The position numbers and the translations under genes were made by a program. Source: Phenylobacterium sp. (GTDB lineage Bacteria; Pseudomonadota; Alphaproteobacteria; Caulobacterales; Caulobacteraceae). From it: a DNA stretch of 64,000 bases. Shown piece by piece: positions 37,908 to 61,937 of this stretch. Within the stretch, counting starts at the first letter, position 1. Each line of letters begins with the position of its first letter. Location: contig SSMU01000016.1 of NCBI GenBank assembly GCA_004799545.1, positions 1 to 64,000 on the forward strand. The letters run 5' to 3'. The notes under the pieces were generated by a model. That model searched no databases and was not told where the DNA came from. It saw nothing but the letters and a program-made list of their open reading frames with translations.

Positions 37908-37918
37908 TTGTCTGACAA
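37908..37918. promoter_or_regulatory. Arabinose operator site 1
   Basis: TTGTCTGACAA, a perfect palindrome around its central T, ends 28 bp before the start of the GH127 gene. It fits the FadR-subfamily GntR consensus TNGTNNNACNA exactly and is the best copy of the family. Because of its position it would block transcription or initiation if occupied. Confidence 0.75.
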
Positions 37919-37946
37919 TATGATCCTCCAGAGCCTTGGAGCAGGC

Positions 37947-40307
37947 ATGAAGGACTATGAGCCGGGCCTAAGCCGTCGCACCGCCCTGCTTGCCGGCGCC
38001 GCGCTGGCCGCGGCCGCTGGGGCCCGCGCCGCGGAAGGGCCGGCGAGCGGCCGGCGCGCCGAACCCTTTCCGCTGGGCGCGGTGCGGCTCACGCCATCGA
38101 TCTGGGCGGACGCCGTCGCCGCCAACCGCCGCTACCTGCTGTCGCTCGACCCGGATCGGCTACTGCACAATTTCCGCGCCGGCGCGGGGCTTGCGCCGAA
38201 AGGCGAGCTCTATGGCGGCTGGGAAGCCCGCGGCATCGCCGGCCACACCCTCGGCCACCATTTGAGCGCCCTGTCGCTGCTGCATGCGCAGACCGGCGAT
38301 GCGGCTTGCAAGGCGCGGGCGGCCTACATCGTCTCGGAGCTGGCGGCCTGCCAGTCCGCGCATGGCGACGGCTATGTCGGCGGGACCACCGTCGAGCGGG
38401 ACGGGCGGATCCTCGACGGCAAGGTGGTCTACGAGGAGCTCCGCCGCCACGATGTGCACGCCGGCCCCTTCGACCTGAACGGCGGATGGGTGCCGCTCTA
38501 CACCTGGCACAAGGTGCACCAGGGCCTGCTGGACGCCGACGCCCTGTGCGGCGACCGCCGCGCGCTGAAGGTCCTCGTCGGCATGAGCGACTATCTGGTT
38601 GGCGTCCTCTCCGACCTCAGCGACGCCGAGGTCCAGACGGTGCTCAGCTGCGAGCACGGCGGGCTCAACGAGGCGTTCGCCGAGACCTACCAGCGCACCG
38701 GCGACGCTCGCTACCTGGCGCTCGCCCGGCGGCTGCACGACAACTCGGTGCTGGATGCGCTGGAGGCGGGCCGCAACGAGCTGGAAGGCAAGCACGCCAA
38801 CACCCAGATCCCCAAAGTCATCGGCCTGGCGCGGCTCTACGAGGTCACCGGCGAGCCGCGCTACGCCCGCGCCGCGCGGTTCTTCTGGAGCCAGGTCACC
38901 GGCCAGCACTCCTACGTCATCGGCGGCAACTCCGAACGCGAGCACTTCCAGGCGCCCGGGGTGATCTCGCAGAGCTTGACCGACCGCACCTGCGAAGGCT
39001 GCAACAGCTACAACATGCTGAAGCTTACCCGCAGGCTCTACGCCTGGGAGCCCAAGGCCGCCTGGTTCGACTGGTACGAGCGCACCCACCTGAACCACAC
39101 CATGGCCCAGCAACGGCCTTCGGACGGGATGTTCACCTATATGACGCCGATGCTGGCCGGCTCCGCGCGGCAGTTCTCCACGCCGACGGAGAGCTTCTGG
39201 TGCTGCATGGGCAGCGGGATGGAGAGCCACGCCAAGCACGGCGATTCCATCTACTGGCGGGCCGGCGACCGGCTGTTCGTGAACCTGTTCATCCCCTCCA
39301 TCCTCGACTGGTCGGAGACCGGGGCGCGGATCGCGCTGGAGACCGGCTATCCGGCGTCCGAGACGGTGCGGCTGAACATCGCGCGGGCGCCGCGCGGGCC
39401 GATGGAGCTGGCGCTGAGATTGCCGGCGTGGAGCGCCGGCCCCCGGCTGTCGGTCAATGGCGCGCCCGTGCCGATCACGGCCGAGGACGGCTACGCCATC
39501 GTCCGGCGGCGCTGGCGCGACGGCGACCTGGTGGAGCTGACGTTGCCGATGCCGTTGCGAATGGAGCCGACGCCGGACAATCCCGACGTCGTGGCCTTCC
39601 TGAGCGGGCCACTGGTGCTGGCGGCGGACCTCGGCCCGGCCACGCGGCCGCTGGCCGCGCCGGCGCCGGCCTTCGTCACCGAGGACCTCAAGGGCGCCCT
39701 GCGGCCGGCCGGCGGCGCCCACCTCTACAAGTCCGTGGGAATGCAGCCGGGCGAGCTGACCCTGCGGCCGTTCTTCGGCCAATACGATCGGCGCACCGCC
39801 ATCTATTTCCCCCGCCTGAGCGAGGCGGCGTGGCGGACGCGCGCCGACGTGTTCGCCGCCGAGCAGGTGCGGCTGAAGGCGTTGGACGTCCGCACGGTCG
39901 ATGTCATCCATCCTGGCGAGGCCGCCTCCGAGCAGGCGCATGGGTTTGGCGCCAACCAGTCGGACGTGACCTCCTACGCGGGACGCGCCGCGCGTGAGGC
40001 CTGGTGGGGCGCGGGCCACTGGATCGAGTGGGATATGGCGGTGCGGCCCGATCGGCCAATGACCTTGCAGGCGCTCTATTGGGGCGAGGAGGTCGACAAA
40101 GACTTCGAGATCCTGATCGACGGCCAATCGCTGGCGATCGAGGCGCGTAAGGGAAACCCCGTCCGTGAGTTCGTGACGCGCGACTATCCCGTGCCGCCGG
40201 CGTGGACCCGCGGCCGCCGGCGGGTGCGGGTCCGCGTGCTGACCCATGGCTCCGATGCGACCGTCTACGAGTGCCGGATGCTGCAGCCGCAGGGCCTGGA
40301 CGCCTGA
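37947..40307 (+). CDS. GH127 beta-L-arabinofuranosidase
   Basis: A 786-residue protein. A Tat-like leader (SRRTALLAGAALAAAAGARA) is followed by the GH127 (former DUF1680) domain. The zinc/cysteine active site is visible as RTCEGCNSYNM (Glu350, Cys352) and SFWCCMGSGMESH (Cys419, Cys420); a Cys is the nucleophile in characterised members, and GGNSEREHF may hold the acid/base Glu. It should release beta-L-arabinofuranose from plant oligosaccharides or glycoproteins, in the periplasm. The start at 37947 (GGAG upstream) is preferred to a TTG at 37908 because that codon lies inside operator site 1. Confidence 0.92.
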   Translation: MKDYEPGLSRRTALLAGAALAAAAGARAAEGPASGRRAEPFPLGAVRLTPSIWADAVAANRRYLLSLDPDRLLHNFRAGAGLAPKGELYGGWEARGIAGHTLGHHLSALSLLHAQTGDAACKARAAYIVSELAACQSAHGDGYVGGTTVERDGRILDGKVVYEELRRHDVHAGPFDLNGGWVPLYTWHKVHQGLLDADALCGDRRALKVLVGMSDYLVGVLSDLSDAEVQTVLSCEHGGLNEAFAETYQRTGDARYLALARRLHDNSVLDALEAGRNELEGKHANTQIPKVIGLARLYEVTGEPRYARAARFFWSQVTGQHSYVIGGNSEREHFQAPGVISQSLTDRTCEGCNSYNMLKLTRRLYAWEPKAAWFDWYERTHLNHTMAQQRPSDGMFTYMTPMLAGSARQFSTPTESFWCCMGSGMESHAKHGDSIYWRAGDRLFVNLFIPSILDWSETGARIALETGYPASETVRLNIARAPRGPMELALRLPAWSAGPRLSVNGAPVPITAEDGYAIVRRRWRDGDLVELTLPMPLRMEPTPDNPDVVAFLSGPLVLAADLGPATRPLAAPAPAFVTEDLKGALRPAGGAHLYKSVGMQPGELTLRPFFGQYDRRTAIYFPRLSEAAWRTRADVFAAEQVRLKALDVRTVDVIHPGEAASEQAHGFGANQSDVTSYAGRAAREAWWGAGHWIEWDMAVRPDRPMTLQALYWGEEVDKDFEILIDGQSLAIEARKGNPVREFVTRDYPVPPAWTRGRRRVRVRVLTHGSDATVYECRMLQPQGLDA

Positions 40308-40336
40308 CACCTGCGGCGCGACGCGCTATAGCGCAA

Positions 40337-40347
40337 TTGTCTGACTA
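40337..40347. promoter_or_regulatory. Arabinose operator site 2
   Basis: TTGTCTGACTA, flanked by AA and ATA, ends 16 bp before the start of the aldehyde dehydrogenase gene. It fits TNGTNNNACNA. Its presence in a 56-bp spacer between collinear genes indicates a separate promoter for this gene. Confidence 0.7.
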
Positions 40348-40363
40348 ATATTCGGAGCCTGCC

Positions 40364-41941
40364 ATGCCTGTGAGCGGCGAAATCTTCGTCGGCGGCGCGC
40401 GCCTGACCAGCGCCGAGCGCTTCCACGCCGTCAACCCGGCCACCGGGAAGCGCCTGGAGCCAGCGTTCTCAGCCGCCGGCCCGGACGAGGTGCAGCGGGC
40501 CTGCTCGGCCGCCTGGGCGGCGTTCGACGCCTATCGCGAGACCTCTCTCGAGGCGCGCGCCAGGTTCCTCGAGACCATCGCCGAGCAGATCATGGCGCTC
40601 GGCGATGAGTTGATCGAACGGGTGATCGCCGAGAGCGGCCTGCCCCGCGCCAGGGTCGAGGGCGAACGGGCCCGCACCACAGGCCAGCTCAGGCTGTTCG
40701 CCCAGATCGTCCGCAGCGGCGACTGGATCGAGGCGCGTATTGATCCGGCCCTGCCCGACCGCGCGCCCCAGCCGCGGCCGGACCTGCGGCTGCGGCACAT
40801 CCCGCTTGGGCCGGTGGCGGTGTTCGGCGCGAGCAACTTCCCGCTGGCCTTCTCCACGGCCGGGGGCGACACGGCCTCGGCGCTGGCGGCCGGTTGTCCG
40901 GTGGTCGTGAAAGGCCACCCGGCGCACCCCGGGGCCGGCGAACTGGTCGCCCAGGCGATCCTCGCCGCGGCCGCGGCGCAGGGGATGCCGGACGGGGTCT
41001 TCAGCTTCCTACCCGGGCCGTCGAACGAACTCGGCGCAGCCCTGGTCGGCGACCCGCGCATCAAGGCCGTGGGCTTCACCGGCTCGCGCCGCGGCGGGCT
41101 GGCGCTGTGCGACCTGGCGGCCCGCCGGCCGGAACCGATCCCGGTGTTCGCCGAGATGAGCAGCATCAATCCGGTGTATTTGCTGCCGGGCGCCCTGGCC
41201 GATCGGGCCGAGGCGCTGGGCGTCGCCTTCGTGGCGTCGCTCGTCCAGGGGGCGGGCCAGTTCTGCACCAATCCCGGGCTGGTGATCGCCCTGGAGGGCC
41301 CCGACCTCGACCGCTTCGTGGCGGCGGCCGGCGCGGCGCTGGCAGACAGTTCTCCGGCGGTCATGCTGACGCCCGGCATCCACGGGGCCTACGCGGCCGG
41401 GCTTGCGGCACTCGGCGCGCACGCCGCGGTCGAAACGGTGGCCGCCGCTGCGGCGCGGGCAGGCTGCAATCTCGGGCACGCGGCCCTGTTCTCCACCACC
41501 GCCGAGGCCTTCCTGGCGGACGGCGCGCTGGCGGCGGAGAACTTCGGCGCTTCCTCACTGCTGGTCCGCTGTCCCGACGTCGCCGCGCTGCGCCGCGTCA
41601 GCGAGGCGCTCGAAGGCCAGCTCACCGCCACCCTGCATCTCGCCGCGGCCGACCACGAGGCAGCGCGCGCCCTACTGCCGATCCTGGAGCGCAAGGCCGG
41701 CCGCATCCTGGTCAACGGCTGGCCGACGGGCGTCGAGGTCTCCCATGCGATGGTCCACGGCGGCCCCTTCCCCGCCACCTCGGATTCGCGCAGCACCTCG
41801 GTGGGCGGCCTGGCGATCCGCCGGTTCCTTCGCCCGGTCTGCTACCAGGACCTGCCCGACGACCTGCTGCCGGAGGCGCTGAAGACCGCCAACCCGCTGG
41901 GCCTGCGCCGCCTGGTGAACGGCCGGCCGGTCCAGGTCTGA
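40364..41941 (+). CDS. 2-oxoglutarate semialdehyde dehydrogenase (aldehyde dehydrogenase family)
   Basis: A 525-residue NAD(P)-dependent aldehyde dehydrogenase. [17 protein letters not shown] (Asn158) belongs to the nucleotide site, Glu264 in [11 protein letters not shown] is the base, and Cys301 in [10 protein letters not shown] is the nucleophile. The ASNFP/SSINP/QFCTNPG set is that of the dehydrogenases in the oxidative pentose and aldarate pathways, which convert 2-oxoglutarate semialdehyde to 2-oxoglutarate. It is collinear with the FAH-type dehydratase and each has its own operator, which supports this substrate. Cytoplasmic. Confidence 0.9.
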
Positions 41942-41966
41942 TTGACTCGCGCAGGCGGGTGGATAT

Positions 41967-42005: not shown

Positions 42006-43004
42006 ATGGCCCTCCGTCTCGTCCAGTTCCGCGATGCCGCCGGAAGCCGCCATCTGGCCGTCGCCGGCGACGACGGCGCGGCGCGGGAAGTCAGGGGCTG
42101 CGCCTCGACCTATTCGCTCGCCCTGCAGGCCATCGAGCAGGGCCGGACGCTAGCCCAGGCGATCGATGCGCTGGAGCTGGGCGACGCCGTCGATATCGAG
42201 GCGGCGCTGGCCGAAGGTCGCCTGTTGCCGCCGATCGACCATCCCGATCCCGCGCACCTCTATCTGACCGGCACCGGCCTGACCCATCTCGGCTCGGCCG
42301 AGGGCCGCGACAAGATGCACCGCAAGACCCAGGGCGCCGAGGAGACGCTCACCGATTCCATGCGGATGTTCCGCATGGGCCTGGAAGGCGGCAAGCCCGC
42401 GGGCGGCGGCCCGGGCGTGCAGCCGGAGTGGTTCTACAAGGGCGATGGCTCGGGCCTGACGGCGTCCGGCCAGCCCCTCGCCTCGCCGGACTTCGCCCTC
42501 GACGCCGGCGAGGAGCCGGAGATCGCCGGCCTCTACGTGATCGGCCCCGACGGCAGCCCCTTCCGCCTCGGCTATGCGCTGGCCAACGAGTTCTCCGACC
42601 ACGTGACCGAGCGCGGCAACTATCTATGGCTCGCCCATTCCAAGCTGCGCCCGGCCGCCGTCGGCCCCGAGCTGCTGGTGGGCGACTTGCCCAAGGATGT
42701 CCGCGGCAAGGTGCGCGTCCTGCGCGGCGGCGCGCCCGTCTGGGAGGCGGACTTCCTGTCGGGCGAGGCGAACATGAGCCACGCCCTCGCCAACCTGGAA
42801 CACCACCATTTCAAGTACGGCCTGTTCCGGCGGCCGGGGGACGTGCACGTGCATTTCTTCGGCACCGCCACCCTGTCCTTCTCCGACGGCGTGAAGGTGG
42901 AACCCGGCGACGTCTTCGAGATCGAGGCCGCGCCGTTCCGCTATCCGCTGCGGAATCCATTGCAGGTTGCGCCGGCTGAAGAGGTCACCGTTCGGCCGCT
43001 CTAG
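42006..43004 (+). CDS. FAH-family 2-keto-3-deoxy-L-arabonate dehydratase (AraD1 type)
   Basis: A 332-residue protein. The N-terminal part has MALRLVQFRDAAGSRHLAV, the middle TGTGLTHLGSAEGRDKMHRK, and the C-terminal core LGYALANEFSDHVTERGNYLW, followed by HHFKYGLFRRPGDVHVHFFGT. This is the AraD1 branch of the fumarylacetoacetate-hydrolase fold. These enzymes dehydrate 2-keto-3-deoxy-L-arabonate to 2-oxoglutarate semialdehyde using a divalent metal. The gene lies between the semialdehyde dehydrogenase and the aldonate-dehydratase operon, consistent with that step. Convergent with the exported GH51 gene 30 bp away. Confidence 0.88.
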   Translation: MALRLVQFRDAAGSRHLAVAGDDGAAREVRGCASTYSLALQAIEQGRTLAQAIDALELGDAVDIEAALAEGRLLPPIDHPDPAHLYLTGTGLTHLGSAEGRDKMHRKTQGAEETLTDSMRMFRMGLEGGKPAGGGPGVQPEWFYKGDGSGLTASGQPLASPDFALDAGEEPEIAGLYVIGPDGSPFRLGYALANEFSDHVTERGNYLWLAHSKLRPAAVGPELLVGDLPKDVRGKVRVLRGGAPVWEADFLSGEANMSHALANLEHHHFKYGLFRRPGDVHVHFFGTATLSFSDGVKVEPGDVFEIEAAPFRYPLRNPLQVAPAEEVTVRPL

Positions 43005-43034: not shown

Positions 43035-44609
43035 TCACCTCAGGTCCAGAACCACCACGGATTTGGCCGGCAGGGTGAGGTTCACCGTGTCGCGCGCCAG
43101 CGTGGCGCCCGCAAAGGGACCGGGCTTCACCACGTCCGGCGCATCGAAGCGGTTGCGGGCGTCCATGTCCGGCGCGGTGAGCAGCTGCCCGCCCACCTTG
43201 CTTGCGCTGAGGCCCTCCAGCTTCACCGTGATGGCCGCTGGATGGCGCGGGTCGAGGTTCACGAGGGCGATATGGGTGACGCCCTGCGGATCGCGGCCGG
43301 CGGAGGCGGAGACCGAAGGCACGCTCACACCGCCGTAGGCGTAGGCGGGCGCATCCACGTCCAGCGGGATCTCGGTCGCGCCCTGGAAGACCTTGTACAT
43401 GTCGTAGACGTGGTAGGTCGGCGTCAGCAGCATCCTCTCCTTGTCGGTGAGGATCATGGCCTGCAGCACGTTCACCATCTGGGCGATGTTGGCCATCTTC
43501 ACGCGGTCGGCGTGACGGTGAAAGATGTTGAGGTTGAGCGCCGCCACCAGGGCGTCTCGCAGGGTGTTCTCCTGGTAGAGGAAGCCGGGGTTGGTGCCCT
43601 TCTCCACATCGTACCAGGTCCCCCATTCGTCGACGAACAAGGCCACCCGTTTCTGCGGGTCGTACTTGTCCATGATCGCGGCATGCTTGGTGATCAGTTC
43701 GTCCATGCGCAGGGTCTGCGACATGGTCTTGATCCAGAGGTCCTCGTCGAAGCCGGTGGCGGGCCCCTTGTGCGGCCACACCCCGGTCGGGACCGTGTAG
43801 TAGTGCAGCGAGATCGCGTCGATCCAGCGGGCGGCGCCTGACATCACGCCCTCGGTCCAGGCGTAGTCAGCGACGTTGGGACCCACCGCGACCTTGGTGA
43901 ACTTGCCCTGGCCCGGCACCGGCCGCAGGAAGGCGGCGTACTGGCGGAAGACGTCGGCGTAGTGTTCCGGACGCATCTCGCCGCCGCAACCCCAGCTCTC
44001 GTTGCCGACGCCGACATAGTTGAGCTGGTAGGGCTTCTCGCGCCCGTTCTTGCGCCGGAGATCGCCGAGCGTCGAATGGGTCTCAGTGGTGATGTACTCG
44101 ATCCAGTGGACCGCCTCCTCCGGGCTGCCGGTCCCGACGTTGACGGTCACGTAGGTCTGCGCGCCCAGCAGTTCAGCGAGGTCGAAGTACTCGTGGGTGC
44201 CGAAGGCGTCGGTCTCCTCGACACCGCCCCACAGGGTGTTGATCCGCACCGGGCGCTGGTCGCGCGGGCCGATCCCGTCGCGCCAATGATACTCGTCGGC
44301 GAAGCAGCCGCCCGGCCAGCGGATCACCGGCACGCGGATCTCCTTCAGCGCCGCCAGCACGTCGTTGCGATAACCGCGGGTGTTGGGGATCTTGGAGTCC
44401 GGGCCCACCCAGACACCCTCGTAGATGCCGCGGCCAAGGTGCTCGGCGAACTGGCCGTAGATGTTGCGTTCGATCACCGGGCCGGGATGGTCGGCGTGCA
44501 GCACGAGCGCGGCGCGGGTCGGCGGGTCGGCGGCCAGCGCCGGGCTCGCCAGGCAAAGCGCCCCCAGGCCGGCGGCCAGGGCGGTCCTGATGCTCCAATG
44601 GAATCCCAT
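43035..44609 (-). CDS. GH51 alpha-L-arabinofuranosidase, exported
   Basis: A 524-residue protein with a signal peptide (IRTALAAGLGALCLASPALAA) and a GH51 domain. The substrate loop is VIRWPGGCFADEYHWRDGIGP, the acid/base is Glu204 in GVGNESWGCGG, and the nucleophile is Glu328 in FVDEWGTWYD. It releases terminal alpha-L-arabinofuranose from arabino-oligosaccharides, in the periplasm or at the outer membrane. AGGAGG lies 5 bp before the ATG at 44609. It is the last gene of the reverse-strand operon that begins at 50979, after the dehydratase. A second, leaderless GH51 lies at 56425. Confidence 0.93.
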   Translation of the reverse strand: MGFHWSIRTALAAGLGALCLASPALAADPPTRAALVLHADHPGPVIERNIYGQFAEHLGRGIYEGVWVGPDSKIPNTRGYRNDVLAALKEIRVPVIRWPGGCFADEYHWRDGIGPRDQRPVRINTLWGGVEETDAFGTHEYFDLAELLGAQTYVTVNVGTGSPEEAVHWIEYITTETHSTLGDLRRKNGREKPYQLNYVGVGNESWGCGGEMRPEHYADVFRQYAAFLRPVPGQGKFTKVAVGPNVADYAWTEGVMSGAARWIDAISLHYYTVPTGVWPHKGPATGFDEDLWIKTMSQTLRMDELITKHAAIMDKYDPQKRVALFVDEWGTWYDVEKGTNPGFLYQENTLRDALVAALNLNIFHRHADRVKMANIAQMVNVLQAMILTDKERMLLTPTYHVYDMYKVFQGATEIPLDVDAPAYAYGGVSVPSVSASAGRDPQGVTHIALVNLDPRHPAAITVKLEGLSASKVGGQLLTAPDMDARNRFDAPDVVKPGPFAGATLARDTVNLTLPAKSVVVLDLR

Positions 44610-44631
44610 CTGATCCTCCTTGCGCCGGCGG

Positions 44632-46434
44632 CTAATGATTGTCGCGGGGCAGGCCCATGGTCTGGGCGATGCGCTGGTATTTGACGGCGGGTTCCAGGAC
44701 CGCGCCGGTGTCGAGCTGGCCGACCACGCCCCGCTGCATCTCCTGCCAGGGCGTTTGGCTGGCGGGATAGGGATAACCGCCCCCCGCCTCCAGCTCCTGG
44801 CGCCGTTCGGCGATCTCCGCCTCGGACAGCAGCACGTCGACGCGCCCTCGGCCGAGGTCCACACGGACCCGGTCGCCGGTGCGCAGGATGGCGAGCCCGC
44901 CGCCGGCCGCCGCCTCCGGGCTGGCGTTCAGGATCGACGGCGAACCGGATGTCCCCGACTGGCGGCCGTCCCCGAGGCATGGCAGGGCGTGGACCCCCTC
45001 GCGGATCAGGTAGGCGGGCGCCCGCATGTTCACGACCTCGGCCGCGCCGGGGTAGCCGATGGGCCCCGCGCCGCGCATGAACAGCAGCGTCCGCTCGTCG
45101 ATCCCCAGCGCCGGATCGTCGATCCGCCGGTGGTAGTCCTCGGGCCCGTCGAACACGACCGCCTTGCCCTCGAAGGCTTCGGGATCGGCCGGATCGGACA
45201 GGTAGCGTTTGCGGAATTCCTCGCTGATGACGCTGGTCTTCATGATCGCGCTGTCGAACAGGTTGCCGCGCAGCACGCGGAAGCCGCCCTGCGACTTGAG
45301 CGGCCGGGCGAAGGGACGGATCACCTCCTCGTCGAGGATCTCCGCGCCGCGATAGAGCTCGCCCACCGTGCGGCCGGAGACCGTCAGCACGTCCTCGCGC
45401 AGCATCTGCTGGGCGAGCAGTTGGCCCATCACCGCCGGCACGCCGCCGGCGCGGTAATAGTCCTCGCCGAGGTATTCGCCGGCGGGCTGCAGGTTGACCA
45501 GCAGAGGCACGTCCTCGCCGTAGGACTGCCAGTCGTCGAGCGAGAGCTCGACCCCGATGTGGCGGGCCAGCGCGTTCAGGTGGATCGGCGCGTTGGTCGA
45601 TCCGCCGATCGCGGAGTTCACAACCACGGCGTTCAGGAAGGCGTCGCGGGTGAGGACATCGCTGGGCTTCAGGTCCTCGCGGACCATCTCGACGATGCGC
45701 CGGCCGGTCTCGTAGGCGCTCTGCTGGCGGTCGCGGTAGGGCGCGGGGATCGCCGCCGAGCCCCGCAGGGACATGCCGAGCGCCTCGGTCAGCGAGTTCA
45801 TCGTGCTCGCCGTGCCCATGGTGTTGCAAAACCCCGTGGAGGGCGCCGAGGAGGCGACCAGCTTGATAAAGCCCGCGTGGTCGAGCTTGCCCGCGGCCAT
45901 CATCTCGCGGGCCTTCCAGACGATGGTGCCGGAGCCGGTGCGCTGGCCCTCGTGCCAGCCATTCAGCATCGGCCCCACCGACAGGGCGATCGCCGGGATG
46001 TTCACCGTGGCCGCCGCCATCAGGCAGGCCGGCGTGGTCTTGTCGCAACCGATGGTGAGCACCACGCCATCGATCGGATAGCCGTAGAGCGTCTCCACCA
46101 GGCTGAGGTAGGCGAGGTTGCGGTCGAGGCCGGCGGTCGGGCGCTTGCCAGTCTCCTGGATCGGGTGGACCGGGAACTCCAAGGGGATGGCGCCGGACAT
46201 CCGGATACCCTCCTTCACCCGCTCGGCCAGCACCAGGTGGTGGCGGTTGCAGGGCGAGAGGTCCGACCCCGTCTGGGCGATGCCGATGATCGGGGCGCCC
46301 GACTGCAGCTCCTCCAGCGACAGCCCGAAGTTCAGATAGCGCTCGAGGTAGAGCGCGGTCATGTCGATGTTGTCCGGATTGTCGAACCAGGCGCGGGAGC
46401 GGAGTCGAGGGGGATCGGGCGGCGTTGCGGTCAT
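44632..46434 (-). CDS. IlvD/Edd-family aldonate dehydratase (L-arabonate or D-xylonate)
   Basis: A 600-residue protein of the IlvD/Edd family that needs an Fe-S cluster. Cluster-binding cysteines are Cys62 in [10 protein letters not shown], Cys130 in [11 protein letters not shown] and Cys203 in [12 protein letters not shown]. The N-terminus ([18 protein letters not shown]) is very close to the Caulobacter D-xylonate dehydratase XylD. In this setting L-arabonate is the more likely substrate, since the FAH-type dehydratase and semialdehyde dehydrogenase follow in the same pathway, but specificity cannot be proved from sequence. Fourth enzyme-coding position of the operon starting at 50979. Confidence 0.9.
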
Positions 46435-50003: not shown

Positions 50004-50004
50004 C

Positions 50005-52020: not shown

Positions 52021-52087
52021 TGGGTCTCGCGGCGCGGCGCGATTTCCACGGCTGGACGCGGATTGACAACCGGACGCTTACGATAAA

Positions 52088-53354: not shown

Positions 53355-54232
53355 GCGCTGGCGACGGCTATCGCGGCCGCGGCGGCCTGGTCGGCTACCT
53401 CTTCGCCGGGCCCTATCTCGTCGCCTACGGCGCCCTGCTGGTCTATCCGCTGCTGGCCGGCATGGCGCTCAGCCTGCACAAGGCCGATCTGTTCGGCGGC
53501 CGCGAGTTCGTGGCGTTCGAGAACTATCGGCGCCTGGTCTCCGACACCGTCTTCCGCCAGGCGGTCGGCAACACCTTGTACTTCACCCTGCTGACCGTCC
53601 CGGCGCTGACCGTCATCTCGCTCGCGTTGGCGCTGGCGCTGAACAAGGCCGGGCGGCTGGCGGCCTTCTTCCGCGGGGTGTTCTTTTCATCCTCGGTGCT
53701 TTCGGTGACCATCGTCACCCTGATCTGGCGCTTCGTGCTGACTCCGGACGGCGGGCTGATCGCCAACGGGCTGAAGGCCGCGGGCCGCGCGCCGATACCG
53801 TTCCTGAGCGACCCGCACCTCGCCCTGCCCGGCATCGCGCTGACCACCGTCTGGTGGTGCCTCGGCTTGCCGATGATGCTGTTCCTGGCCGGACTGCAGC
53901 AGATTCCGGGTGAGCTCTACGAAGCCGCCGCCCTCGACGGCACGAGCGCCTGGCGCACCTTCTGGCGGATCACCCTGCCGTTGATCGGTCGCACCCTGCT
54001 GGTCGTCGTACTGATCGAGTCGGTGATGCAGTTCCAGCTGTTCGGCCAGTCGCAGATCATGACCCAGGGCGGCCCGAACGGCGCGTCGCGGCCGATCGTG
54101 CTGTTCATTTACGAAGTTGCGTTCCGACGTTGGGACGTCGGCTATGCGGCGTCCGCCTCGGAGGTGCTCTTCGCGCTGATCCTGCTGGCCAGCGCCCTGC
54201 AGTACGCGGCCACGCGGGAGCGGCGGCGGTGA
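53351..54232 (+). CDS. Carbohydrate ABC transporter permease (MalF/UgpA type)
   Basis: A 293-residue inner-membrane protein with about six helices and the MalF EAA loop, ELYEAAALDGTSAWRTFWRITLP, which docks on the ATPase. It starts in the ATGA overlap with the ATPase gene and ends in a GTGA overlap with the next permease, so the whole operon is translationally coupled. Confidence 0.92.
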   Translation: MSAGDGYRGRGGLVGYLFAGPYLVAYGALLVYPLLAGMALSLHKADLFGGREFVAFENYRRLVSDTVFRQAVGNTLYFTLLTVPALTVISLALALALNKAGRLAAFFRGVFFSSSVLSVTIVTLIWRFVLTPDGGLIANGLKAAGRAPIPFLSDPHLALPGIALTTVWWCLGLPMMLFLAGLQQIPGELYEAAALDGTSAWRTFWRITLPLIGRTLLVVVLIESVMQFQLFGQSQIMTQGGPNGASRPIVLFIYEVAFRRWDVGYAASASEVLFALILLASALQYAATRERRR

Positions 54233-55077
54233 CGGCGGCCGGCGTGAAAGGCCCGTCGCTCGCTGGCTTCACCCCGGCCGGCCTGGCCGGGGTCGCCCTC
54301 GCGGCGGCGGTGATGATCACGCCGCTGCTGTGGACCGTCGGCCTGTCGCTGAAGCCCAATTTCGAACTGATGCGCGACACTAGTTCAGTGTTCGGTCCGC
54401 CCTACACACTCGAGAACTATCGCGCGATCCTCGCCAACTCGAATGTGTTCCGCTGGGTGTTCAACAGCACGGTGGTCTCGCTGAGCACGACCTTCGGCGT
54501 GCTCGCCCTCTCGTCGCTGGCCGGCTACGCCTTCGCACGGCTCGAATTCCGTGGGCGCCGTGCGCTGTTCGTGGCCGTCCTCCTCGGCCTCGCCATCCCG
54601 GAGCAGGCGGTGATCATCGCCCGCCATCAGATGTTCAGCGCGCTGCATCTGCACAACACCTACCCCGGCCTGATCCTGCCCGGGCTGTCGGCGCCCTTCG
54701 GCGTCTTCCTGATGACCCAATATTTCCGCGGCATCCCGGTCGAGCTCGACGAGGCGGCCCTGCTGGACGGGGCGTCGCACTTCACCATCTTCTGGAAGGT
54801 GCTGCTGCCGCTCACCCTGCCGGCCCAGGCGACGCTCGGCATCTTCACCTTCCTGGCCTCGTGGAATGACTACTGGTGGCCGCTGATCTCGGCGACGCGC
54901 AGCAGCATGTTCACCCTCACCGTCGGCGTCGCCTCGTCCCAGATGAACTTCGCCCAGACCAGCGGGCTCGGCTACCTGATGGCCCAGGCGGTCTTCGCCT
55001 CCGTCCCGATCCTGATCGTCTACGCCCTCTTCCAGCAGCACATCGTCCGCGCCGTGGCCGGGGCCGCAACGCGATGA
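54229..55077 (+). CDS. Carbohydrate ABC transporter permease (MalG/UgpE type)
   Basis: A 282-residue inner-membrane protein with the MalG EAA loop ELDEAALLDGASHFTIFWKVLLP and membrane segments such as GVALAAAVMITPLLWTVGLSL. The start is the GTG at 54229 that overlaps the upstream stop; a longer frame to 54130 is an artefact. It pairs with the MalF-type permease. Its stop overlaps the start of the binding-protein gene. Confidence 0.92.
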   Translation: MTAAGVKGPSLAGFTPAGLAGVALAAAVMITPLLWTVGLSLKPNFELMRDTSSVFGPPYTLENYRAILANSNVFRWVFNSTVVSLSTTFGVLALSSLAGYAFARLEFRGRRALFVAVLLGLAIPEQAVIIARHQMFSALHLHNTYPGLILPGLSAPFGVFLMTQYFRGIPVELDEAALLDGASHFTIFWKVLLPLTLPAQATLGIFTFLASWNDYWWPLISATRSSMFTLTVGVASSQMNFAQTSGLGYLMAQAVFASVPILIVYALFQQHIVRAVAGAATR

Positions 55078-56402
55078 TCGGGAACCTGAGACTCGGGATG
55101 CGGTGCGCCGCGGCGGCGGCCTGGCTGCTGCTTGCGCCGGCCTGCGCGCCCAAGGACGCGCGCACCGAGATCGTGCTGCAGCGGTTCTTCGGCGAATGCG
55201 GCGCGACCTACGGCGGCAAGACCGACGTCGCCGCGGCCGAAGGCGAGTGCGGGATCATGACCACCCTGGTCAACCGATTCAACGCGGAGAACCCGGACAT
55301 CCGCGTGAAGGTGAACACCGTCGCCTGGCCGGGCTATGACCAGCTCTCGGCCCAGCTCGCGGCCGGCGATCCGCCGGACATCGTCACCATGCACCAGTCG
55401 GCGATCTCGGACTACGCCGCGCGGCGCCTGATCGAGCCGATGGACGCCACGCTTCGCCAGGCTGGCGTCGACGTGGCCGGCTTCACGCCGGCCGCGCGGC
55501 AAGGCGTCACCAAGCAGGGGCGGATCTGGGGCCTGCCGATGGACAACTGGGCCATGCTGTTCCACGTCAACACCGCCCTGTTCGCGCAGGCCGGCCTGAT
55601 GCGCGGCGGCGAGGCGATCCTGCCGACCAGCCCCGACGAGCTGCTCGCCCAGGCCCGCCAGTTCAAGGCCCGCACCGGCAAGCCCTACCTGATCCAGTCG
55701 GAGGCCAACGAGACCGCCGCCTATGCGCGGAACCTCTACACCTACCTGATGGGCCAGGGGGCGGTGATCTTCCCCGACGCCAAGCACATCCGCCTCGACA
55801 CGCCGGAGGCGCGCCGCGTCGTGGCCCTGTTCCGAACGCTGAACCAAGAGGGCCTCAGCACGCGCAACCAGGACTATTCGGCCGCGACGGCGAGCTTCAT
55901 CCGTGGCGACGGCGGGGTCTATCTGGTGGGCACTTGGATGATCGGCGACTTCGAGAAGGAAGCGCGCACGCCCGGCCAACCGCTCTACAGGAGCTACGCC
56001 GTCTATCCCTATCCGCAGCTCTATGCCCGTGACGCCGAGTTCGTCGACGGCCACGCCTGGGTCTTGCCGGTCCGCGCACACACACCGGCCCAGCGTCGGG
56101 CGCTGGTGCGGCTTTTGAAGTATATGGCCGACAACGATTTCGAATGGTCGCGCACCGGCCATCTGCCGGCCTATGCCTCGATCATCGCGAGCCGCAGGTT
56201 CCAGGACCTGCCGCACCGGCGCGACCTCGCGCGCCTGACGGTGATCGGCTCGCCGCTGCCCAGCTACGTGCAGCGCCAGTTCGCCATCCAGGACATCGTC
56301 GGTGACGAGTTGGCCTCTGCGATCAGCGGCGCCAAGCCGACGGACCAGGCTCTGGCCGACGCCGAGCGGCGCGTCGACGATCTCCTCTTCAACCTCCTTT
56401 GA
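55074..56402 (+). CDS. Extracellular solute-binding lipoprotein, family 1
   Basis: A 442-residue MalE/UgpB-type binding protein with a lipobox (LLLAPAC). The mature part has VNRFNAENPDIRVKVNTVAWPGYDQLSAQLAAGDPPDIVTMHQS, MDNWAMLFHVNTALFAQAG and GVYLVGTWMIGDFE. It should bind a di- or oligosaccharide, probably an arabino-oligosaccharide, in the periplasm. Unusually the early mature segment holds two cysteines (FFGECGATYGGKTDVAAAEGECG), possibly a disulphide. The ATG overlaps the permease stop. Confidence 0.9.
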   Translation: MIGNLRLGMRCAAAAAWLLLAPACAPKDARTEIVLQRFFGECGATYGGKTDVAAAEGECGIMTTLVNRFNAENPDIRVKVNTVAWPGYDQLSAQLAAGDPPDIVTMHQSAISDYAARRLIEPMDATLRQAGVDVAGFTPAARQGVTKQGRIWGLPMDNWAMLFHVNTALFAQAGLMRGGEAILPTSPDELLAQARQFKARTGKPYLIQSEANETAAYARNLYTYLMGQGAVIFPDAKHIRLDTPEARRVVALFRTLNQEGLSTRNQDYSAATASFIRGDGGVYLVGTWMIGDFEKEARTPGQPLYRSYAVYPYPQLYARDAEFVDGHAWVLPVRAHTPAQRRALVRLLKYMADNDFEWSRTGHLPAYASIIASRRFQDLPHRRDLARLTVIGSPLPSYVQRQFAIQDIVGDELASAISGAKPTDQALADAERRVDDLLFNLL

Positions 56403-56424
56403 CGGCCAAGCCTAAGAGACCCAG

Positions 56425-57936
56425 ATGCTGAGCGCCTCGATCTACGCCGACACCAACTTCGTCATCTCGCCGCTGGACCGGCGCCTGTTCGGCACCTTCG
56501 TCGAGCACCTGGGCCGCTGCGTCTACGGCGGCATCTACGAGCCCGGCCATCCCACCGCCGACGCGCAAGGCTTCCGCGGCGACGTGATGGCGCTGACCCG
56601 CGAGCTCGGCCCGACCATCGTCCGCTATCCCGGGGGCAACTTCCTCTCGGGCTACAACTGGGAGGACGGCGTCGGGCCGAAGGACCAGCGTCCCACCAAG
56701 CTCGACCTCGCCTGGGGCACCACCGAGACCAATGAATTCGGGACCAACGAATTCATCGACTGGTGCCGCGCCGCCGATATCGAGCCGATGTTCGCGGTCA
56801 ACCTGGGCACCCGCGGCGCCGATGAGGCCCGCTGCTTCCTCGAGTACTGCAACCACCCCGGCGGCAGCCACTATTCGGACCTCCGGCGGGCGCACGGCTA
56901 CGAGGCCCCGCACGACATCAAGTTCTGGTGCCTGGGCAACGAGATGGATGGGCCCTGGCAGATCTGCCAGAAGACGGCCAACGAGTACGGCCGGATCGCC
57001 CAGGAGACCGCCAAGGCGATGCGCATGCTCGACAGGTCGCTGACATTGGCCGCCTGCGGCTCCTCCCAGCGCGAGATGCCCACCTACGCCGCCTGGGAGC
57101 ACGAGGTGCTGAACCAGTGCTTCAACCAGGTCGATTTCATCTCGCTGCACGCCTACTTCAAGAATGAGGCGGACGACATCGAGACCTATTTCACCTCGCT
57201 CGAGGACCTGAATTTCTTCATCAAGGAGGTGGCGGCGATCGCCGACACCGTCGCCTCGCAGAAGCGCTCCACCAAGCGGATCATGCTGTCGCTGGACGAG
57301 TGGAACGTCTGGTACAAGGCCCGGACCCCCGCCGACCTGAAGGGGGTGGACTGGGCCAAGGCCCCGCCGCTGCTCGAGGAGATCTACACCTTCGAGGACG
57401 CGCTGATCGTCGGCGGCGCCCTGATCGTGATGATGAACAACGCCGACCGCGTGAAGACCGCCTGCCTGGCGCAGCTGGTCAATGTGATCGGCGCGATCTT
57501 CACCGAGACCGGCGGCCCCGCCTGGCGCCAGACCATCTTCCATCCCTTCGCCCTGGCCTCGCGCGTCGGCCATGGCGTGGTGTTGCAGCCGCGGGTGCAG
57601 ACCGAGGGCTACGCGACGGCGGCGCATCCGTTCGTGCCCTATCTGCTCTCCACCGTGCTGCACAATCCGGAGACCGGCGAGGCGGTGGTGTTCGCCCTGA
57701 ACCGCAGCACCAAGGAGGAGATGGACCTGCAGATCGACCTGCGCGGCGTCGGCGAGCGGCTGGAGCTGCGGGCGGCGACCGAGCTGCACCACGCGGATCT
57801 CAAGGCGATCAACAGCAAGGCCGCGCCGGACGAGGTGTCGCCGAAGGCCAACGCGCAGGTCTCCGTCGAGGGCTCGCGCGTCCAGGCGCGGCTCAAGCCG
57901 CAGTCCTGGAACGTCATCCACCTGGCCGGCGGCTGA
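56425..57936 (+). CDS. GH51 alpha-L-arabinofuranosidase, cytoplasmic
   Basis: A 503-residue GH51 without a leader: GTFVEHLGRCVYGGIYEP at the N-terminus, PTIVRYPGGNFLSGYNWEDGVGP, acid/base Glu173 in LGNEMDGPWQ, and nucleophile Glu292 in SLDEWNVWYK. It is typical of intracellular arabinofuranosidases and differs from the exported GH51 at 43035. It is the last gene of the UgpC-type ABC operon, 22 bp after the binding-protein stop, so imported oligosaccharides are its likely substrate. Convergent with the GH43 gene. Confidence 0.94.
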   Translation: MLSASIYADTNFVISPLDRRLFGTFVEHLGRCVYGGIYEPGHPTADAQGFRGDVMALTRELGPTIVRYPGGNFLSGYNWEDGVGPKDQRPTKLDLAWGTTETNEFGTNEFIDWCRAADIEPMFAVNLGTRGADEARCFLEYCNHPGGSHYSDLRRAHGYEAPHDIKFWCLGNEMDGPWQICQKTANEYGRIAQETAKAMRMLDRSLTLAACGSSQREMPTYAAWEHEVLNQCFNQVDFISLHAYFKNEADDIETYFTSLEDLNFFIKEVAAIADTVASQKRSTKRIMLSLDEWNVWYKARTPADLKGVDWAKAPPLLEEIYTFEDALIVGGALIVMMNNADRVKTACLAQLVNVIGAIFTETGGPAWRQTIFHPFALASRVGHGVVLQPRVQTEGYATAAHPFVPYLLSTVLHNPETGEAVVFALNRSTKEEMDLQIDLRGVGERLELRAATELHHADLKAINSKAAPDEVSPKANAQVSVEGSRVQARLKPQSWNVIHLAGG

Positions 57937-57963: not shown

Positions 57964-58980
57964 TCAGACCGCCACCGGCCAGCCGTCGTCGCTCCAGCCC
58001 AGCCGGGCGATCCGCAAGGTCGGCGCGCCCTTATTGGCGCTGTCGTAGGCGTGATAGACGATGAACTCACGCCCCCCGTCCCGCAGGATCGAGGCGCCGC
58101 CTGGCCCCTTGAAGCGGCCGCTCGGATCGAGCTTGGCGTGCAGCACCAGGAAGCCGCCGCCCTCCATCAGGGCGTGGCCCTCGCGATCGACGTACGGCCC
58201 CTCCACCGCCTTCGAGCGCCCCACGGCCGTGTAGTAGCTGCTGTCCACGCCGCGGCAGCAGAAGTCGAAGGCCGCGAACAGGTACCACCAGTCGCCCCGG
58301 CGGATGATGAAGGCCGCCTCGATGGCGTCCGGCGTCCGGCGTCGGGCCAGGCTGTGCAGCGGGGCGTCGGGGCGCGGCCTGCCGGTCGCGGGGTCGAGCT
58401 CGACCAGCTTCAGGCCAGACCAGAAGCTGCCGAACGCCAGCCAGGCGCGCCCGTCGTCGCCCACCACCAGGTTGGGATCGATGCAATTGTAGTCGTCGCG
58501 GACGCTGGAGCGGATCACCGCCCCCTCGTCACGCCAACCGAAGTCCGCCGCCTGCGGGTCCAGCGTCGGCGTGGTCATCAGCCCGATCACCGAGTGGTTC
58601 TTCCCGAAGCTCGAGACCGCGTAATAGAGATGATAGCGCCCGTTCAGCAGGCCGATGTCCGGCGCCCAGGCGCCGCGCGCTTCGGGGATCTCCCGCTGCG
58701 CCCAATCCGGTAGCTTCTCCAGCGCCGGGGCCCGCTCGGTCCAGGTCGTCAGGTCCGTGGATGTGCGCCACGGGATCGCGCCCCGCGCCGCCGGCGAGGA
58801 GCCGGTGCAGAACAGGTGGAAGGTCGCGCCCTGCCGGATCATGCAGGGGTCGTGCACCGGGGAGATGTCGCCCTTCAGCCGGTCGTTGAGCACGCCCTGT
58901 CCCTGCGCTGCGCCGGGCGCGGCGATGGCTGCGGCGCCGATCAGCAGGCTTCTGCGGTTCATCGGCGCGAAGGTGCTCAT
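57964..58980 (-). CDS. GH43 endo-1,5-alpha-L-arabinanase
   Basis: A 338-residue protein. A leader is visible (MNRRSLLIGAAAIAAPGAAQG after MSTFAP). The five-bladed propeller GH43 domain has base Asp44 in SPVHDPCMIRQG, a WAPDIG loop, Asp168 in YNCIDPNLVVG and acid Glu221 in DAIEAAFIIRRGDWWYLF. These are the residues of arabinan endo-1,5-alpha-L-arabinanases. It cuts the arabinan backbone outside the cytoplasm. ATG at 58980 or 58962 are possible, and a GTG at 59046 is less likely. It lies downstream of the TonB receptor gene on the same strand, in the same transcription unit. Confidence 0.88.
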   Translation of the reverse strand: MSTFAPMNRRSLLIGAAAIAAPGAAQGQGVLNDRLKGDISPVHDPCMIRQGATFHLFCTGSSPAARGAIPWRTSTDLTTWTERAPALEKLPDWAQREIPEARGAWAPDIGLLNGRYHLYYAVSSFGKNHSVIGLMTTPTLDPQAADFGWRDEGAVIRSSVRDDYNCIDPNLVVGDDGRAWLAFGSFWSGLKLVELDPATGRPRPDAPLHSLARRRTPDAIEAAFIIRRGDWWYLFAAFDFCCRGVDSSYYTAVGRSKAVEGPYVDREGHALMEGGGFLVLHAKLDPSGRFKGPGGASILRDGGREFIVYHAYDSANKGAPTLRIARLGWSDDGWPVAV

Positions 58981-59070
58981 GACGTTCACCAAGAAGGCGG
59001 GCGGCGGAGCCTGTCCGCCGCCCCAGTCCGAGGAGGAGGCCCGCACTGCCTCCGGGGGAACTCAGGCGTG

Positions 59071-61746
59071 TCAGAACCTGAAGCGCAGGCCCGCGCCGAA
59101 GGTCCGGTCATACTCGCGGGTGTCGCGCGGCGTGAAACCATTGGAGCCGAAGTTGTCGCGATAGCGGGTGTCCGTCAGGTTGGTGGCGTCAACCGTCACC
59201 GTCAGGTCGTCGGTCAGGTTGTAACTCGCCGAGAAGTCCAGGAAGCCGATCGGCTCGACGATGATCGATCCGCCGGGATTGCTTGGCGAATAGCTGTCGG
59301 TCCACCGGCTGCGCCAGTTGTAGGCGAGGCGCGCGGAGAGCCCATGCTTCTCGTACATGGCCACCAGGTTGTACGAGTAGTGCGAGACGCCGGTGATCGG
59401 CTGCAGGCCCGGCGAAACGCCGGTGGCGTCGGGCGGGCCCTGCACTTCGCCCTCGGATAGGGTCACGTTGGCCTGCACGCCGAGGCCGTTGAGCGGCTCC
59501 GGCAGGAAATCGAAGAACTGGGTATAGGCCGCCTCCAGGCCCTTCAGCGAGCCGTCGCCGGTATTGCGCGGGCGGCTGATCAGGAAGGTCTGCGGCGTGC
59601 CGTTGAACGGCTGGGTCTCCACCGCCGAGTAGGTCTGGATGTAGCCGTTCAGCTTCTTGTAGAAGGCCGACAGGGTGACCAGGCCGGTGTTGGAGAAATA
59701 CCACTCCGCCGTGCCGTCGAAGTTGGTGGACTTCACATCGCCCAGTTGCGGGTTGCCGCCCGATCCGGTGCCGAACGTGGAGCTGTTGCCGGTGGCGCCG
59801 GTGACCGTCAGGCTGAGCGCCGGGTCGAGCTGGGCGAACTGCGGCCGCAGGAAGGTCTTGCCGACCACCAGGCGCAGCACGACGTTGTCCATCGGGTGCG
59901 CCCGCAGGGTCACGCTGGGCAGGACGGTGTCTTCGTCGCGGTTGCTGTTGATCGGCGTCGGCGTGGTGACGCCACCCGATGAGGTCAGCTGGATGGCGTG
60001 CAGGTCGGTCTGCGTCTTCACGAAGCGCGCGCCGGCGATGCCGTCGATCGGCACACCGAAGGCGTCGAAATTGAAGCCGGCCTGGGCATAGGCTGCGCTT
60101 ACCTTCTCCTCCAGGCTGAAGCTCTGGTTCGGATCGAACGGCTGGCCCCCCACCGGGAAGCCGACCTGGGCGCGAAGCGCGGCGATGTTGTCGCGGATGA
60201 AGGCCGTGCTCGGCACGGCGAAGCCGTTGACGCCCAGCAGCCCGCTGACGATGTCGTCGGGCGCGTTGGAGCCCACCGCGGCCGGCGTCACCGTGCCGCC
60301 CGGGAACAGCAGGCTGCCGGTGTTGGTGCCGGCGGAACTGCCGTTGCGGTCGGCCCAGCGGACGCCCGCCTGGATGTCGGTGATCGGCGAGCTCGAGTCG
60401 AACTTGTAGGTCGCGTCGCCGCGCCAGGCGGTCTGGTCGCTGTCGGCGATGTTGTGGTTATCGAACAGTTGGAAGAGGTTCAGGATGCCGGTGTTGCGGT
60501 AGTCGAACCCGTTGAAATTGATGTGAGGCGTGCCGCCGGAATTGAAATTGTAGTTTATCTGCGGAACGACGTAGTCCGTATCGAGCACATATTGGATGCT
60601 GGACACCTTGCTCTTGTCGTAGGTCAGGTCCGAAGTCAGCGTCAGCGGGCCGTGATCCCACCGGCCGCCGAAGTTGTACTGATAGCCGTCGGTTTCGTTG
60701 TGGAAGGTCTGCTTGCTGGAAATCGTGAAGTTGTTGAGCGTGGTGATCGTGCCGGCCACCAGGGTGTTGTTGGTCTGCGGCCCGGCCGAGCCAGCCTGCG
60801 GCGTCACCGAGACCACGTTGCCGGCCTTCGGCAGGCCGACGAAGAAGCTGACGTCCTGATCCTCGCGGTATCCGGTGTAGAGCGCGTCGGCATGCAGCTC
60901 CAGGTCGGGCGTCGGCTTCCACTGGACGGAGGCGTTGACGCCCGTGCGCTTGCGGTCGCCATCGGTGACCAAGCCGCCGACGGTGTCGGGGATCAGCACG
61001 GTGGCGCCATTGGTCGCCGGGCCGCTGAACGGATTGAAGCCGAAGTTGAAGGCGGTCTGGTCCTCGTATTGCCGCTTGTTGTAGGAGGCCCCAACCAGGA
61101 CCCCGAAGTCCTGGCCGTTGGGCAGGGTCCAGTGGTTGCTGTAGAGGCCGCTGCCGATGTAGCTCCACTTGTCGGCCTGGTCGCTGTAGATGCCGCGCAC
61201 GCCGCCGGCGATCTCGCGACCCGGGAAGTCCAGCGGCCGGTGCAGGCGGATGTCGACGATGCCGGAAACGCTGCCCTCGATCTGGTCGGGCGTGTTGGTC
61301 TTGTAGACGTCGACGCCGGCCACCAGTTCGGCGGGGATGTCCGCCAGCGCCACGCCGCGGCCTGTGCCGGTGAAGATCTCGCGGCCGTTGACCACCGTCT
61401 CGATGTTGGGAAGGCCGCGGATCAGCACGGTCCCGACCTCCTGGCCGGCCCGGGTGACCTGGACGCCGGTGACCCGCTGCAGGGCGTCGGACACGGTGTT
61501 GTCCGGCAGCTTGCCGATGTCTTCGGCGACGATCGAGTCGACCACCTGCGGGGCGTTCTTCTTGATCGCCTCGGCGTTGGTGAGGCTCTGGCGCAGCCCG
61601 GTGACCACGACCTCGGAGACCTCCCCCGAGCCGGTCTTCTTGGCGGCGGCCGGGTTGTCCGAGCTCGCTTGCGCAAAGCAGGGCGAGGCCGCCAGCAGCA
61701 TCGTGGCGGCCGACGCGGAACATAGCGCGACTATCTTCAGGTCCAC
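59071..61746 (-). CDS. TonB-dependent receptor of the arabinoside locus
   Basis: An 891-residue outer-membrane receptor. Signal peptide (MDLKIVALCSASAATMLLAASPCFAQ), TonB box EVSEVVVTGLRQSL, plug domain with GKLPDNTVSDALQRVTGVQV and VLIRGLPNIETVVNGREIFTG, and a barrel ending FGAGLRFRF with terminal Phe. The TonB-box motif and length are those of Caulobacterales receptors for oligosaccharides; arabino-oligosaccharides are inferred from the neighbours. The start is a GTG at 61746 with GGGGAGG upstream. Operator sites 6 and 7 lie upstream, and GH43 follows 90 bp downstream. Confidence 0.92.
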   Translation of the reverse strand: MDLKIVALCSASAATMLLAASPCFAQASSDNPAAAKKTGSGEVSEVVVTGLRQSLTNAEAIKKNAPQVVDSIVAEDIGKLPDNTVSDALQRVTGVQVTRAGQEVGTVLIRGLPNIETVVNGREIFTGTGRGVALADIPAELVAGVDVYKTNTPDQIEGSVSGIVDIRLHRPLDFPGREIAGGVRGIYSDQADKWSYIGSGLYSNHWTLPNGQDFGVLVGASYNKRQYEDQTAFNFGFNPFSGPATNGATVLIPDTVGGLVTDGDRKRTGVNASVQWKPTPDLELHADALYTGYREDQDVSFFVGLPKAGNVVSVTPQAGSAGPQTNNTLVAGTITTLNNFTISSKQTFHNETDGYQYNFGGRWDHGPLTLTSDLTYDKSKVSSIQYVLDTDYVVPQINYNFNSGGTPHINFNGFDYRNTGILNLFQLFDNHNIADSDQTAWRGDATYKFDSSSPITDIQAGVRWADRNGSSAGTNTGSLLFPGGTVTPAAVGSNAPDDIVSGLLGVNGFAVPSTAFIRDNIAALRAQVGFPVGGQPFDPNQSFSLEEKVSAAYAQAGFNFDAFGVPIDGIAGARFVKTQTDLHAIQLTSSGGVTTPTPINSNRDEDTVLPSVTLRAHPMDNVVLRLVVGKTFLRPQFAQLDPALSLTVTGATGNSSTFGTGSGGNPQLGDVKSTNFDGTAEWYFSNTGLVTLSAFYKKLNGYIQTYSAVETQPFNGTPQTFLISRPRNTGDGSLKGLEAAYTQFFDFLPEPLNGLGVQANVTLSEGEVQGPPDATGVSPGLQPITGVSHYSYNLVAMYEKHGLSARLAYNWRSRWTDSYSPSNPGGSIIVEPIGFLDFSASYNLTDDLTVTVDATNLTDTRYRDNFGSNGFTPRDTREYDRTFGAGLRFRF

Positions 61747-61805
61747 TGGTTTCCTCCCCTTGGCGCCTGTCGGCCGCGATTGTTCCGCGGTCCTCGTTCG
61801 CCCTT

Positions 61806-61816
61806 AACTCAGACAA
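61806..61816. promoter_or_regulatory. Arabinose operator site 6
   Basis: AACTCAGACAA, that is TTGTCTGAGTT on the reverse strand, lies 59 bp upstream of the TonB receptor start in its direction. Same family as sites 3 and 5. Confidence 0.68.
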
Positions 61817-61926
61817 TAGCTAGTTCTGGAGCTTGGCGCTAGCAAGCGGTTTTTGGGGCGGCGCGCGCCATACGGAGAGGCTTCGCCTTGTTTTCCGGCG
61901 GAGAGCGCTCCAGACCGAAAGTTTAA

Positions 61927-61937
61927 ATGTCTGAGTA
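61927..61937. promoter_or_regulatory. Arabinose operator site 7
   Basis: ATGTCTGAGTA, ten of eleven bases as site 3, lies 180 bp upstream of the TonB receptor start. It may act with site 6 or mark another start; no forward gene follows. Confidence 0.5.

Follow-up and report, generated by a model that had tools for sequence, protein, structure and literature searches.

The best solved relative, by sequence, of the regulator considered here is DgoR of E. coli (7c7e), a FadR-subfamily repressor of D-galactonate use. According to PMC12288454, DgoR represses via inverted repeats overlapping its promoter, and PMC7674646 reports that its residues D146, H150, and H195 hold a metal beside the D-galactonate pocket. 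The regulator encoded at 51280 of a 64,000-nucleotide stretch of Phenylobacterium sp. DNA (hereafter the window) resembles DgoR in its conserved metal/pocket residues, in predicted sites that overlap the promoter, and in its association with a sugar-acid pathway. The two differ in scope, DgoR serving one dgo operon and the 51280 regulator six predicted units of an arabinose locus. They differ also in operator symmetry: the DgoR site is described as symmetric, with its IR1 containing TTGTAGTACAA (PMC12288454), whereas the Phenylobacterium-type operator is asymmetric.

Three further regulators invite comparison. LhgR of Pseudomonas putida W619, a GntR regulator of L-2-hydroxyglutarate use, has footprinted sites given as TAGTCTGACAA and TTGTCTGACAA (PMC8206213). 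These use the same arms as the window sites, and LhgR is likened by its operator alone; its effector and target genes, as the same source presents them, are different. AraR2 of Halomonas is a predicted GntR regulator of araD, araA, araE, a lactonase, and L-arabinose/L-arabinonate genes (PMC5507952). It was compared by the description of its gene set and shares the family and the arabinose/arabinonate targets, but that description has a TRAP transporter under control and names no glycosidases; no Halomonas occurred among the best 80 of 586 relatives' loci. AraR of Firmicutes combines a GntR-type helix-turn-helix (HTH) with control of arabinose and arabinose-polysaccharide genes, as outlined in PMC4494728. 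Its C-terminal domain is there of the GalR/LacI type, whereas the sensor of the 51280 regulator is an FCD domain, so the AraR fusion is not what is encountered here.

The arabinose locus and its probable regulator

The 24 kb between 37.9 and 61.9 kb encode arabinoside uptake and, judged from the gene set, would also encode oxidative L-arabinose breakdown. The features, headed by one gene outside the 24 kb, are as follows.

9791-10738, plus strand: Gfo/Idh/MocA oxidoreductase, candidate L-arabinose 1-dehydrogenase that lies 27 kb away from the regulon and lacks an operator
37947..40307, plus strand: GH127 family protein, beta-L-arabinofuranosidase-like (PF07944, 425 bits)
40364..41941, plus strand: aldehyde dehydrogenase (PF00171)
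42006..43004, plus strand: AraD1-family protein, candidate L-2-keto-3-deoxyarabonate dehydratase (NF040903, 530.6 bits, cut-off 340)
43035..44864, minus strand: alpha-L-arabinofuranosidase, GH51-type (PF06964, PF22848)
44632..46434, minus strand: IlvD/EDD dehydratase, candidate L-arabinonate dehydratase (PF00920)
46508..50979, minus strand: ABC operon 1, nearest YtfQRT, with two permeases, ATPase (48489-50003), and binding protein (50005-50979)
51280..52020, plus strand: FadR-subfamily GntR regulator with FCD domain (PF00392, PF07729; start codon uncertain)
52257..57936, plus strand: ABC operon 2, with ATPase, two permeases, binding protein, and ArfA-type arabinofuranosidase
56425-57936, plus strand: the ArfA-type arabinofuranosidase (NF051901, 801 bits, cut-off 625)
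57964..59046, minus strand: GH43 protein, arabinanase-like (PF04616; below the AbnA cut-off)
59071..61746, minus strand: TonB-dependent receptor (PF00593, PF07715; TIGR01782, 656 bits, cut-off 310)

Curated NCBIfam cut-offs were passed by the AraD1-family protein (NF040903), ArfA (NF051901), the dehydratase, and the receptor (TIGR01782); the other names follow the best match or Pfam. The dehydratase exceeds the cut-offs of NF009560 and NF004784 (dihydroxy-acid dehydratase) and falls below that of NF009559 (L-arabinonate dehydratase), and each protein of ABC operon 1 stays below its NCBIfam cut-off. The aldehyde dehydrogenase reached no NCBIfam cut-off among the matches listed; its place in the locus suggests the role of alpha-ketoglutarate semialdehyde dehydrogenase. 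The AraD1 family is presumably FAH-fold, and the GH-family numbers given to the arabinofuranosidases of the locus are our assumption. The real start of the arabinofuranosidase at 43035..44864 is probably further in than the listed one, which overlaps the next gene. By gene order, six units are formed: GH127; aldehyde dehydrogenase; araD1; ABC 1-dehydratase-arabinofuranosidase; ABC 2-arabinofuranosidase; and receptor-GH43.

The candidate dehydrogenase at 9791-10738 is 55% identical to the product of a Gfo/Idh gene that is flanked by araD1 and the aldehyde dehydrogenase gene in a Caulobacter locus (L046). As to the lactonase, the genome holds six matches to the SMP-30 family, none of which was assigned to the arabinose pathway. 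Near the dehydrogenase candidate, a DUF2961 protein (PF11175) is encoded at 7343-8809 on the plus strand; we take DUF2961 to be GH172, a family with furanosidase members. Just before the regulon, a 2-hydroxycarboxylate transporter family protein (PF03390) is encoded at 34911-36308 on the minus strand; a long ORF (33058-36924), with a hybrid histidine kinase encoded at its end, overlaps it.

The initial annotation had placed a FadR-type regulator at the centre of the locus, and both expected domains are recognized above their Pfam cut-offs: an N-terminal GntR winged HTH (PF00392, 44.7 bits, cut-off 27) and a C-terminal FCD domain (PF07729, 91.4 bits, cut-off 24.3). In a genome of 4.03 Mb that is 92% complete, the regulator is the sole FCD match and one of four proteins with a GntR HTH above the Pfam cut-off. 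Its residues D162, H166, and H210 do not vary among 19 orthologue sequences and align with D146, H150, and H195 of DgoR. By analogy with the DgoR pocket, the inducer is likely a sugar acid of the pathway.

Seven predicted operators

A scan of the window located seven putative operators, all at the coordinates that had been claimed.

37908..37918, plus strand: predicted operator 1, TTGTCTGACAA, 28 bp before the GH127 start, 20.5 bits
40337..40347, plus strand: predicted operator 2, TTGTCTGACTA, 16 bp before the aldehyde dehydrogenase start, 28.6 bits
41967..41977, plus strand: predicted operator 3, TTGTCTGAGTA, 28 bp before the AraD1-family start, 29.9 bits
51038..51048, plus strand: predicted operator 4, TTGTCCGACAT, 22.7 bits
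52088..52098, plus strand: predicted operator 5, TTGTCTGAGTA, 158 bp before ABC operon 2, 29.2 bits
61806..61816, minus strand: predicted operator 6, TTGTCTGAGTT, 59 bp before the TonB receptor start, 20.5 bits
61927..61937, plus strand: predicted operator 7, ATGTCTGAGTA, 180 bp upstream of the TonB receptor, 26.0 bits

The sites were said to share TTGTCTGASTA or a near match, which applies well to six of them: 40337, 41967, and 52088 are exact, and 37908 (TTGTCTGACAA, a perfect palindrome as described), 61806 (TTGTCTGAGTT on the minus strand), and 61927 (ATGTCTGAGTA) carry one mismatch. The seventh, 51038 (TTGTCCGACAT), differs at three positions from TTGTCTGACTA, which by eye makes "near match" a generous term, and yet ranks fifth among the seven by weight matrix; it is located 58 bp from ABC operon 1 and, on its other side, 231 bp from the divergent regulator gene. 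The sites precede all six units, as proposed, except that 61927 has no unit of its own and is a second site for the TonB receptor; for the pathway as a whole, "every unit" goes too far, the best L-arabinose 1-dehydrogenase candidate being without a site. Likewise, the window is not entirely free of the motif elsewhere: a one-mismatch match occurs at 22796 (TTGTTTGAGTA) within the ORF 22784-25099, but it scores just 11.5 bits, the next value after the seven.

Counted within the window alone, the motif is not striking, with nine matches at up to two mismatches against 5.1 expected and seven of 100 shuffles reaching nine; the genome and relatives were therefore used. The genome-wide total is not raised either (13 matches at up to one mismatch, 24 for a reversed-pattern control), and a scan of the 4.03 Mb genome confines the exact matches to the 24 kb of the locus (three of three) but the matches at up to one mismatch less so (six of 13). 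The binomial p for this clustering, 7.5e-11, is post hoc, since the pattern was derived from the same sites. To lessen this circularity, a 19-column weight matrix was built from 67 distinct of 107 sites in 40 loci around regulator orthologues, the window excluded. The top seven positions that it finds in the window are exactly the seven sites (20.5-29.9 bits), and the best score elsewhere, in 20 other stretches of the same genome (400,000 bases), is 14.6 bits; some circularity persists in these scores because the seeds of the training sites were three 11-mers from the window. Six one-mismatch matches fall outside the window, five of them in the 400 kb sample and all five below 9 bits, the sixth at C12:336.

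Two looser or additional candidates were discarded. Across the genome, the relaxed pattern TTGTCNGASWA gave 17 strand matches, each palindrome contributing two, whereas its control gave 24. An eighth site, the perfect palindrome TTGTCCGACAA at C8:89520 (L137 1501-1511), 25.5 kb beyond the window, was rejected at less than 9 bits; it lies inside ORFs on both strands, with G+C-rich flanks.

Motif, regulator, and predicted target genes in the family

Among 299 family genomes, with a close orthologue defined by a best E <= 1e-70 (a threshold of our choice) and up to nine candidates scored per genome, 74 have a close regulator orthologue and 79 the strict motif WTTGTCTGASTAW. Where the orthologue is present, 71 of 74 genomes carry the motif; where it is missing, eight of 225 do (Fisher p 1.9e-55, relatedness ignored); such p-values overstate independence because genomes and sites share ancestry. 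In total, 266 strict matches were counted, 248 in genomes with and 18 in genomes without the orthologue; the reversed control, counted by eye, gave 26. The discordant genomes are few. G010, G152, and G232 have the orthologue without the strict motif; the first two carry one-mismatch sites near the regulator gene. G099 and G104 have the motif without the orthologue and show partial matches that score highly but are short or sit at low contig coordinates, and which look like regulator genes cut by contig ends. G133 has four strict matches, yet its 320 contigs yielded no close orthologue, and five of the eight motif-bearing genomes without an orthologue have one site each. In the genus of the window, the regulator occurs in four of 73 genomes; two of those four have the strict motif, and none of the 69 others does.

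The araD1 gene (E <= 1e-60), found in 76 of the 299 genomes, accompanies the regulator in 71 of 74. Where the two part, the motif tracks the regulator and not araD1: it is present in all three genomes with the regulator and without araD1, and in one of five with araD1 and without the regulator, the exception being G099 with its regulator piece at a contig end.

In the 40 loci around orthologues, sites precede ilvD-type, araD1, aldehyde dehydrogenase, arabinofuranosidase, and ABC genes. Strict sites lie at most 450 bp upstream of a homologue's start in 108 of 144 distinct cases, while such windows make up 10.8% of bases; the other 36 are unassigned. In the assignment of sites to genes, the labels ABCatp and GH51b denote the nearest homologue; they tell apart neither the two ABC systems nor the two genes for arabinofuranosidases. 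A scan of named genomes, for which the best 80 of 586 relatives were kept, covered Caulobacter, Brevundimonas, Asticcacaulis, Maricaulis, Glycocaulis, Sphingomonas, Novosphingobium, Sphingobium, Methylobacterium, Microvirga, Niveispirillum, Luteibacter, and others. Of these 80 loci, 73 have one or more sites at 18 bits, and seven (L178, L180, L194, L203, L209, L212, and L228) have none at that score. The first 40 named loci yielded 137 strand matches, against 0-5 for 20 column-shuffled matrices. In Caulobacter, Maricaulis, Sphingomonas, Methylobacterium, and Luteibacter, the motif again stands in front of these pathway genes, with frequent variants such as TTGTATGAGTA and ATGTCGGAGTA in the Sphingomonas and Methylobacterium loci. 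The record of L178 is titled Bacillus sp. 2B10 and encodes a 60% identical regulator; the assembly is possibly mislabelled or mixed. Altogether, co-occurrence, the tracking of the regulator by the motif, and the shared pathway genes give comparative support to the compact local arabinose regulon, read by the 51280 regulator, that the initial annotation had proposed.

Operator shape, promoter geometry, and proposed control

The sites had been likened to the canonical TNGTNNNACNA palindrome, which just two of the seven fit (37908 and 40337). Used as an operator definition, it gave five window matches against 3.2 expected, covering those two sites, and was abandoned. The predicted family-wide operator is instead the asymmetric TTGTC-N-GASTA. 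When T[TA][GC]TC was allowed on both sides with A/T flanks, 144 distinct sites showed two TTGTC arms in five cases, one in 136, and none in three, where free combination predicts 37, 72, and 35; once near-identical upstream regions are set aside, asymmetry holds for 78 of the 83 sites assigned to a gene. These counts reflect shared ancestry and are not independent events. With the right arm left open after WWTTGTCN (n=229), GACTA (76) and GAGTA (58) lead, followed by GAGTT (13) and GACAA (10). TKGT/ACMA boxes three bases apart occur in two of the seven window sites. Among relatives, GACTA or GAGTA prevails as the right arm, and the GAGTA sites thereby lose the AC of the ACMA box. Exceptions to the TKGT/ACMA operator within the FadR subfamily are named in PMC4494728. 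The strong arm can face either way: it points in the direction of the gene in 29 of 29 araD1 sites, and for ilvD-type genes in 14 sites, with 21 opposite.

The asymmetry extends over several alphaproteobacterial orders and Luteibacter. It may not be unique to this group, as one footprinted LhgR site, TAGTCTGACAA, has the same mixed arms (PMC8206213). Tentatively, and with the balance rather against it, the operator could be obligately asymmetric, offering one TTGTC and one TASTC-type arm to a presumably homodimeric repressor; either asymmetric docking would set the promoter geometry, or selection would favor one intermediate affinity. Under the latter, the whole regulon would be released at one inducer level.

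A TTGACA-like box (at least four of six positions; offset taken from box start relative to the operator) depends in its position on operator orientation. Where the strong arm is upstream, 20 of 49 sites have it at -25; where the weak arm is upstream, 19 of 29 have it at -23. At other offsets the frequency is 68 of 2573 (2.6%). The -35 box thus differs in position by exactly 2 bp between the two orientations. The window holds two such boxes at -25:

41942..41947, plus strand: -35-like box TTGACT, starting 25 bp before operator 3
52063..52068, plus strand: -35-like box TTGACA, starting 25 bp before operator 5

The other window sites have no -35-like box at -25, so that the proposal of separate promoters is borne out by a well-placed box at two of six units and finds none at the modal distance for the rest. 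The fixed distance implies that, in promoters with such a box, the operator covers the -10/start region, which makes repression likely. From the computed sites, regulator family, co-occurrence, gene conservation, and -35 distance, we infer binding, repression, and inducer: the seven sites are very probably operators of the 51280 FCD GntR regulator, which would repress by promoter overlap and be released by a sugar acid.

Other readings of the same data have less to commend them. The second TonB site at 180 bp and operator 5, 158 bp from its gene, would suit an activator, or a regulator that activates some units and represses others; this is unlikely, however, as the sites with a recognizable -35 box lie across the -10/start region, where a bound protein would be expected to block transcription, and DgoR, the nearest solved relative, is a repressor. 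That another transcription factor of arabinose genes uses the sites, the FadR-type gene being a passenger of the locus, is very unlikely. Such a view could draw on the joint travel of regulator and pathway genes and on the three further GntR-HTH proteins of the genome, but it conflicts with the behavior of the motif where regulator and araD1 part (three of three against one of five), with the lack of a second FCD match in the genome, and with the fit of the palindromic core to the footprinted sites of LhgR, a GntR-family protein (PMC8206213). Hardly credible is the view that the motif belongs to the core promoter or is an A/T-rich word present by chance, even though the sites adjoin -35-like boxes and relaxed patterns are genome-wide no commoner than their reversed controls: strict matches far exceed the reversed control (266 against 26) and lie mostly in regulator genomes (248 of 266), and the occurrence of the motif in both directions relative to the gene, as at ilvD, led us to reject the promoter-element reading.

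In the favored model of repression, the regulator would occupy TTGTC-N-GASTA over the -10/start region and block RNA polymerase. On arrival of arabinosides or L-arabinose, basal oxidation would yield a sugar acid (L-arabinonate or L-2-keto-3-deoxyarabonate); such production before induction would be possible since the dehydrogenase candidate at 9791-10738 has no site. The acid would then enter the FCD pocket and free the operators, and receptor, transporters, glycosidases, and the oxidative pathway would be switched on together.

The outcome is a candidate regulator, operator, and gene list for oxidative L-arabinose/arabinoside use in Caulobacterales, with the same motif also in Sphingomonadales, Methylobacterium, and Luteibacter; the titles and abstracts among the matches listed from an open-access library describe no such regulon for these groups. 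The asymmetric operator is the part most deserving of a bench test. If the model is true, it would provide arabinose- or arabinonate-responsive promoters and aid the assignment of substrates to unnamed transporters and receptors that bear the site.
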